Positions 41,874-41,964 of a DNA stretch of 64,000 nt are shown here, one piece after another. The translations under genes and the position numbers were made by a program. How positions within the stretch are numbered: position 1 is the stretch's first letter; every line of letters begins with the position of its first letter. The notes beneath the pieces are model-generated. The model ran no database searches. It saw nothing but the letters and a program-made list of their open reading frames with translations, and was not told where the DNA came from. The stretch comes from Catenulispora acidiphila DSM 44928 (GTDB lineage Bacteria; Actinomycetota; Actinomycetes; Streptomycetales; Catenulisporaceae): NCBI RefSeq assembly GCF_000024025.1, contig NC_013131.1, positions 5,704,001-5,768,000 on the forward strand. The letters run 5' to 3'.

Positions 41874-41964
41874 CAGCGATGCTGCACAGGTCGGCTGCGC
41901 AGCAATGCTGCGCAGCATTGCTGTACAGCAGAACTGAACAGCGGAACTGAACAGCATTGCTGTA
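41874..41964. repeat. Seven 13-bp iteron-like palindromic units
   Basis: Contiguous 13-bp units at 41874, 41887, 41900, 41913, 41926, 41939 and 41952: CAGCGATGCTGCA, CAGGTCGGCTGCG, CAGCAATGCTGCG, CAGCATTGCTGTA, CAGCAGAACTGAA, CAGCGGAACTGAA, CAGCATTGCTGTA. Every unit keeps CAG at 1-3 and CTG at 9-11, so most are small dyads (CAGC-N3-GCTG). Units 3 and 4 together form a perfect 24-bp palindrome (41900-41923). The last unit reaches TAGAGT (41963-41968), a possible -10 for the enolase gene. Confidence 0.92.

Follow-up and report, generated by a model that had tools for sequence, protein, structure and literature searches.

The window analysed here is a stretch of 64,000 nucleotides from Catenulispora acidiphila DSM 44928, and all coordinates without a prefix refer to it. 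Seven contiguous 13-bp units of the form CAG-N5-CTG occupy positions 41874..41964 (starting at 41874, 41887, 41900, 41913, 41926, 41939 and 41952; no strand assigned) and form a candidate operator array between two divergent genes. The minus-strand gene, at 41428..41850, encodes a 140-aa MarR-family regulator (P0001), assigned by domain, NCBIfam and PDB searches, with PF12802 at 43.8 bits (cut-off 27) and PF01047 at 38.6 bits (cut-off 24.6). The plus-strand gene, at 42040..43326, encodes a 428-aa enolase (P0002), assigned by domain and profile matches, genome searches and alignment, with 632.6 bits to TIGR01060 against a cut-off of 300; we refer to it as eno2. A first-pass annotation of the window had described a run of seven contiguous 13-mers between a MarR gene and enolase, and the exact, phased count of seven and the above-cut-off matches for both proteins bear this out. 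Its statement that most units are dyads holds at the level of four-base half-sites for four of the seven (units 1, 3, 4 and 7 are full CAGC-N3-GCTG dyads) and fails for units 2, 5 and 6, which have CAG and CTG only. The perfect 24-bp palindrome that it had attributed to two adjacent units is formed by units 3 and 4 (41900..41923, no strand assigned), with no mismatch to the two-unit pattern and with both strands identical letter for letter. The eno-proximal unit, CAGCATTGCTGTA (41952..41964, no strand assigned), is the best conserved of all units in the comparison of 84 loci described below. The last unit shares its TA with TAGAGT at 41963..41968 (plus strand), the predicted -10 of eno2, as had been suspected from the sequence, and the TA of the last unit opens a TANNNT box in all 84 loci. 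On the other side of the array, the predicted -10 of marR, TAAAGT (41856..41861, minus strand), lies 5 nt from the start codon, so that a leaderless marR transcript is likely; a TANN(G/A)T box ends 5-8 nt ahead of the marR start codon in 80 of the 84 loci. We recognised no good -35 element at either the eno2 or the marR promoter. A Shine-Dalgarno sequence for eno2, GAAGGA, can be read at 42028..42033 (plus strand).

Chance or a simple repeat can be ruled out as the origin of the array, both by simulation and by its uniqueness in the genome. The window contains 22 CAG-N5-CTG sites, and the longest run in 13-bp phase is the run of seven described above; of 200 sequences simulated with the dinucleotide frequencies of the window, 199 had a longest run of one unit and one had a run of two units. 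The genome scan for CAGC-N3-GCTG arrays that had been proposed with the first-pass annotation gave the same picture: with at most one mismatch, the two-unit pattern CAGCN3GCTG-N2-CAGCN3GCTG has the array as its sole site in the 10,467,782-base genome, and with two mismatches it has 24 forward places, as against 15 for a backwards control. Tandem Repeats Finder returned two weak rows only for the array. Elsewhere in the window there are a 194-bp tandem repeat (25351-26023; 3.5 copies, 92% matches), an 11-bp tandem repeat, AGACCTGGCTC (48644-48716; 6.5 copies), and a 1396-aa open reading frame on the minus strand (43362-47552) that by eye resembles the catalytic subunit of nitrate reductase with a flavodoxin/reductase part fused to it.

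Our comparison of related loci drew on two sets. With the MarR protein as query, named genomes yielded 153 relatives, of which the best 80 were kept; 69 of these are titled Streptomyces, and the rest are Micromonospora, Promicromonospora, Streptacidiphilus, Actinacidiphila and a [Kitasatospora]. A whole-genome orthologue set comprised 8 loci at at least 75% identity, the own genome included, three of them strains also found among the 80. The 80 named-genome loci together with L005, L006, L007 and L012 make up the 84-locus set. CAG-N5-CTG units are present upstream of marR in all 80 of the best 80 of 153 relatives and in all 8 whole-genome loci; by sequence, then, this regulator has the palindromic site at its own promoter expected of the MarR family in 84 of 84 loci. 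A divergent eno2 at at least 85% identity accompanies marR in 79 of the best 80 of 153 relatives, the sequence of the remaining one, L104, ending before any enolase, and a divergent eno does so in all 8 whole-genome orthologue loci. Within 5 kb on each side, outside marR and eno2, no cluster of open reading frames is common to more than 7 of the 80 loci (best 80 of 153 relatives). The array and this marR co-occur in unrelated gene neighbourhoods, and one copy of the cassette is on a 1.07-Mb Streptomyces plasmid. Three consecutive units occur in 53 of 293 genomes of the order, as against 9 genomes for the backwards control, and 27 of the 30 loci fetched from three-unit genomes are the cassette, the exceptions being L163, L170 and L183. 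We presume from these comparisons that the array is the conserved operator of a two-gene marR-eno2 cassette. Two incomplete copies were seen: in L104 (1-194), marR, the array and the leader hairpin described below are present, with non-enolase sequence after the Shine-Dalgarno and a contig end soon after, perhaps at an insertion sequence; and G024:C16:391872-392294 is an eno2-like stretch at 86% identity that covers residues 287-427 only and is perhaps a decayed cassette.

Loci of more distant MarR proteins allow the dyad to be seen apart from the enolase. We examined 22 such loci and found no enolase within the stretch covered; 7 of these 22 eno-less paralogues have an upstream site that agrees with TACAGC-N3-GCTGTA at 9 or more of 12 positions, a level that the backwards motif reaches in 1 of 22, and the other 15 paralogues stay below 9 of 12, the motif having been picked after a few of the paralogue loci had been inspected. 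Examples of such dyads, from paralogues of 39-50% identity, are TACAGCTATGCTGTA and TACAACTAAGCTGTA. Given these dyads, the unit is best seen as a 15-bp MarR dyad and the array as a series of such dyads overlapping by two bases, and the sequence comparison suggests that the dyad is tied to this MarR subfamily. A genome-wide regulon can be set aside, in that the own genome contains no second array; a single 15-bp dyad with one mismatch occurs there at 5 places, the last unit of the array among them, and the backwards control likewise at 5, so that no regulon can be claimed. In L163 (1501-1539), from a genome of the same genus, a three-unit array of variant dyads, CAGG..CCTG, lies about 1.2 kb from a MarR paralogue, close to open reading frames that by eye look LysR-type and CapA-like; it may represent this operator design at a different target.

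We propose, and consider probable, that MarR dimers bind cooperatively to overlapping 15-bp dyads at a 13-bp pitch, keeping the two divergent promoters repressed until a ligand dislodges the protein. One dimer would recognise a 15-bp dyad close to TACAGC-N3-GCTGTA; with dyads head to tail every 13 bp and two flanking bases shared between neighbours, dimers sitting side by side could build up a cooperative filament wound around the DNA. The -10 of eno2 would be covered by one end of such a filament, and the other end would approach the leaderless promoter of marR, so that eno2 and marR would be repressed together, the latter by autorepression. A small-molecule ligand that weakens MarR binding would then release the whole filament together and switch eno2 on sharply. 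Since 13 bp is about 1.24 turns, neighbouring dimers would be rotated by roughly a quarter turn. The rigid 13-bp phase and the TANNNT box at the end of the array suit this kind of coating by MarR dimers. A published structure offers a partial precedent, since the MarR protein Rv2887 is reported to have been crystallised as two dimers on 30 bp of DNA, where each dimer takes up 15 bp and the two occupy almost opposite faces (PMC5526998). Each of those dimers is said to sit independently on its DNA (PMC5526998), and the structure as reported there therefore shows room for close packing rather than cooperativity.

The number and the phase of the units bear most directly on whether neighbouring dimers would touch. 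The first-pass annotation had named a variable or absent array in orthologous promoters as evidence against its reading; the array is never absent in the 84 loci, but its length varies, with 2 exact in-phase units in 4 loci, 3 in 23, 4 in 22, 5 in 20, 6 in 6, 7 in 8 and 10 in 1, and by that earlier yardstick the variable number counts against the proposal. This variation, from 2 to 10 units with decay of the distal ones, is what would be expected of a non-cooperative multi-site operator, in which dimers bind singly, extra units raise local occupancy and repeats multiply by slippage. Six identical units in a row in L096 are a sign of recent slippage, and the reported independence of the Rv2887 dimers agrees with such an operator (PMC5526998). 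Drifting copies, however, should lose phase, and recognisable units keep it across genera: in 84 distinct regions, 283 of 287 other units share the 13-bp phase of the last unit, as against a chance expectation of 1 in 13, with the phase of each region taken from the majority of its units, a choice that slightly favours the in-phase count. Successive units are one 13-bp period apart 236 times, two periods 40 times, three 6 times and four once, and the phase persists even across decayed units. Conservation declines from eno2 towards marR, the eno2-adjoining unit being nearly fixed and the second unit reading CAGC-NAAACTG; the CAG and CTG ends of units are kept across the 84 loci while their centres diverge, which also argues against independent sites. 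We therefore regard the non-cooperative operator as unlikely, and take strict phase with variable unit number, on the strength of sequence comparison, as the strongest argument that neighbouring dimers may be in contact.

Two further explanations do away with MarR binding altogether. The array might be the site of another protein, such as an activator, a nucleoid protein or an iteron-type initiator, with the MarR gene its neighbour by chance. Its form does resemble iterons, and to that extent the first-pass term iteron-like is apt; as to function, the description does not hold, since by Pfam the genes at its flanks are for a MarR protein and an enolase rather than a rep gene beside an origin, and this divergent eno partner recurs in 79 of 80 loci (best 80 of 153 relatives). 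Together with the retention of the array beside this marR in unrelated neighbourhoods and the similar dyads upstream of paralogous marR genes, this makes another protein very improbable as the occupant. Less probable still is that the palindromes work at the RNA level, terminating or attenuating transcription, and not as DNA sites: they can fold, and a microRNA model scores 34.7 bits at the array (far under its gathering score of 98), but the array is upstream of the -10 predicted for eno2 and of the leaderless start predicted for marR and would thus be part of neither predicted transcript.

A second conserved element, absent from the first-pass annotation, adjoins the array. In 82 of the 84 loci a hairpin lies between the array and the eno2 Shine-Dalgarno; sequence comparison places this hairpin at 41976..42015 (plus strand) in the window, where its stem, P1, has one A.C mismatch, and its inner part, GCGCCAGCGYYGUCGC across loci, is GCGCCAGCGTTGTCGC in the window copy (41986-42001, plus strand). 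L053 and L072 are without the hairpin, and their eno2 start codons are about 10-22 nt behind the array; their eno2 message is perhaps leaderless. All 70 distinct copies can form P1 here, with 6 to 10 pairs. With the register chosen for each sequence, pair 2 is U-G in 50 copies, C-G in 12, U-A in 7 and unpaired in 1; pair 6 is G-C in 42, C-G in 27 and U-G in 1; pair 8 is C-G in 35, G-C in 27, G-U in 4, U-G in 3 and unpaired in 1; pair 9 is C-G in 38, U-G in 26, U-A in 4 and unpaired in 2; and the innermost pair, 10, is paired in 39 of 70 copies only. The many G-U pairs point to an RNA rather than a DNA dyad. Strands pair better with their own partner than with swapped ones (-17.07 versus -15.40 kcal/mol), and none of 5000 permutations was as good, a test inflated by relatedness. 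The stem is thus kept by paired changes when the register is set per sequence, and more weakly within one clade. There, both sides change in 1 of 14 P1 pairs. Of 500 shuffles, 15 to 202 equalled what was observed, the figure for the share of pairs being 15; slid registers pair at 28-62%, as against 96.5% for the P1 register. Folding energies add little: seven folds gave z from -1.86 to +1.13 relative to shuffles (+1.13 for the window copy), and so were not more stable than these, and the fold of the window leader gave z -0.32. P1 is the minimum-energy fold in four of the seven copies folded, the window copy not among them. RNAalifold did not recover P1 from 81 distinct leaders, probably because the sequence alignment sets two clades in different registers.

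Searches for the hairpin among known RNAs gave no Rfam family for it. Across 41700-42200 of the window, at E up to 10, there were 11 Rfam matches, none over the gathering score, and at gathering 10 cassette loci gave a single match, a c-di-AMP riboswitch some 3.7 kb away from the leader of L067. A search with our own model, R1, built from 21 sequences of one clade, matched 8 of 394 genomes of the class at E up to 0.01; five of these matches are the cassette (G000, G032, G036, G046 and G048), and the weak matches L157, L158 and L160, with neither marR nor eno in the stretch examined, look like chance. As R1 is based on a single clade and missed the divergent G016 copy, absence elsewhere is no proof. 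An exact core pattern, found in 118 of 391 genomes of the order, was visibly mixed with chance matches and was discarded as a leader search. A riboswitch-like pairing of the loop with bases ahead of the Shine-Dalgarno found no support (own -10.19 versus swapped -9.93; 282 of 5000 permutations as good). The eno2 mRNA would open with this conserved hairpin, which probably tunes stability or translation, and its place at the predicted 5' end suits such control.

The enolase beside the array is one of two full-length copies. The other, at G000:C1:217542, is 62% identical to eno2 and has a higher TIGR01060 score; with this housekeeping-like enolase elsewhere in the genome, the presumed target of the array is the second enolase. 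A third, partial enolase-like stretch, at G000:C1:4501606-4501899, has 45% identity to residues 314-410. The link to glycolysis drawn in the first-pass annotation is accordingly correct as to the enzyme, but concerns a duplicate copy and not core glycolysis as such. We aligned 28 eno1 and 80 eno2 sequences, full-length matches only, with a few genes present twice via two loci. Across the nine motifs compared with eno1, which we take to have catalytic roles, eno2 keeps the catalytic-motif residues. At 41 positions the two groups differ and each is more than 95% uniform, and several of these positions adjoin catalytic motifs; the motif-adjacent variants include GDDVFCT for GDDLFVT, and also the MDPASSEF and IKTGAPARS segments. 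Streptomyces coelicolor likewise has two enolases, and the second, sco7638, which we compare with eno2 as a second enolase only, is reported to be barely expressed in M145 on glucose (PMC12727718). In S. lividans, the second enolase protein is reported as abundant, with a possible influence of PhoP (PMC7244524).

A spare enolase paired with marR in a two-gene cassette without fixed neighbours resembles a stress or resistance device. Enolase is reported to be inhibited by the natural phosphonate SF2312 (PMC12288639) and by fluoride (PMC11139923), and it is plausible that eno2 may serve as a spare, inhibitor-tolerant enolase. PEP mutase-like matches above 290 bits occur in 1 of the 8 genomes with the cassette and in 5 of the 52 others, none over the curated cut-off, so that in this small sample the cassette has no association with phosphonate producers. 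At its boldest, the proposal would be of a mobile target-duplication resistance cassette, in which a MarR filament on counted sites senses an enolase inhibitor, or the metabolic jam that results from it, and responds by all-or-none expression of a spare enolase with changes close to the active site, a new class of leader RNA serving as a second control; we offer this as speculation with the balance of probability well against it. Whatever the signal, the cassette presents a presumed MarR operator that varies naturally from 2 to 10 sites, in one phase and at the same promoter, across many species, and such a series is a test of how site number sets the threshold of a bacterial switch and how steeply the switch responds. 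With a widespread spare enolase under presumed repressor control and an undescribed leader RNA, the question of why actinomycetes retain a second enolase becomes directly testable.

It is common for MarR proteins to control neighbouring genes, and both MarR control of central metabolism (TamR; PMC5487221) and MarR operators of one or two palindromes (ZitR; PMC6372160) are already known from the reports cited. In the open-access literature we found no tandem MarR array in fixed phase, no MarR control of enolase and no account of this leader; the first-pass annotation, which knew of no described MarR site of this form, is in agreement with that search. By sequence, the Rv0880 family is the best NCBIfam match of P0001 (NF052438) and its second-best PDB match (4yif); at 91.5 bits, as against an equivalog cut-off of 220, P0001 falls outside the Rv0880 subfamily. 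The Rv2887-DNA complex has MarR dimers packed at 15 bp each, as the array would, but as reported does not involve a tandem array of equal dyads (PMC5526998). ZitR/AdcR operators, as described, likewise have palindromes that overlap -35 and -10 elements for a MarR-family repressor, with one or two sites and zinc as the ligand (PMC6372160). The fluoride-riboswitch enolase genes, as reported, share with eno2 a regulated enolase with a conserved leader (PMC11139923); the leader region of the window has no match to the fluoride riboswitch even at E up to 10, and here there is a presumed MarR operator as well. A close parallel is TamR of S. coelicolor, likewise a MarR-type dimer with palindromes in marR promoters and a central-metabolism target in an actinomycete; relative to TamR-type operators as reported (PMC5487221), the cassette described here is set apart by its tandem dyads, 2-10 in number and strictly in 13-bp phase, and by a duplicate enolase as the presumed target.
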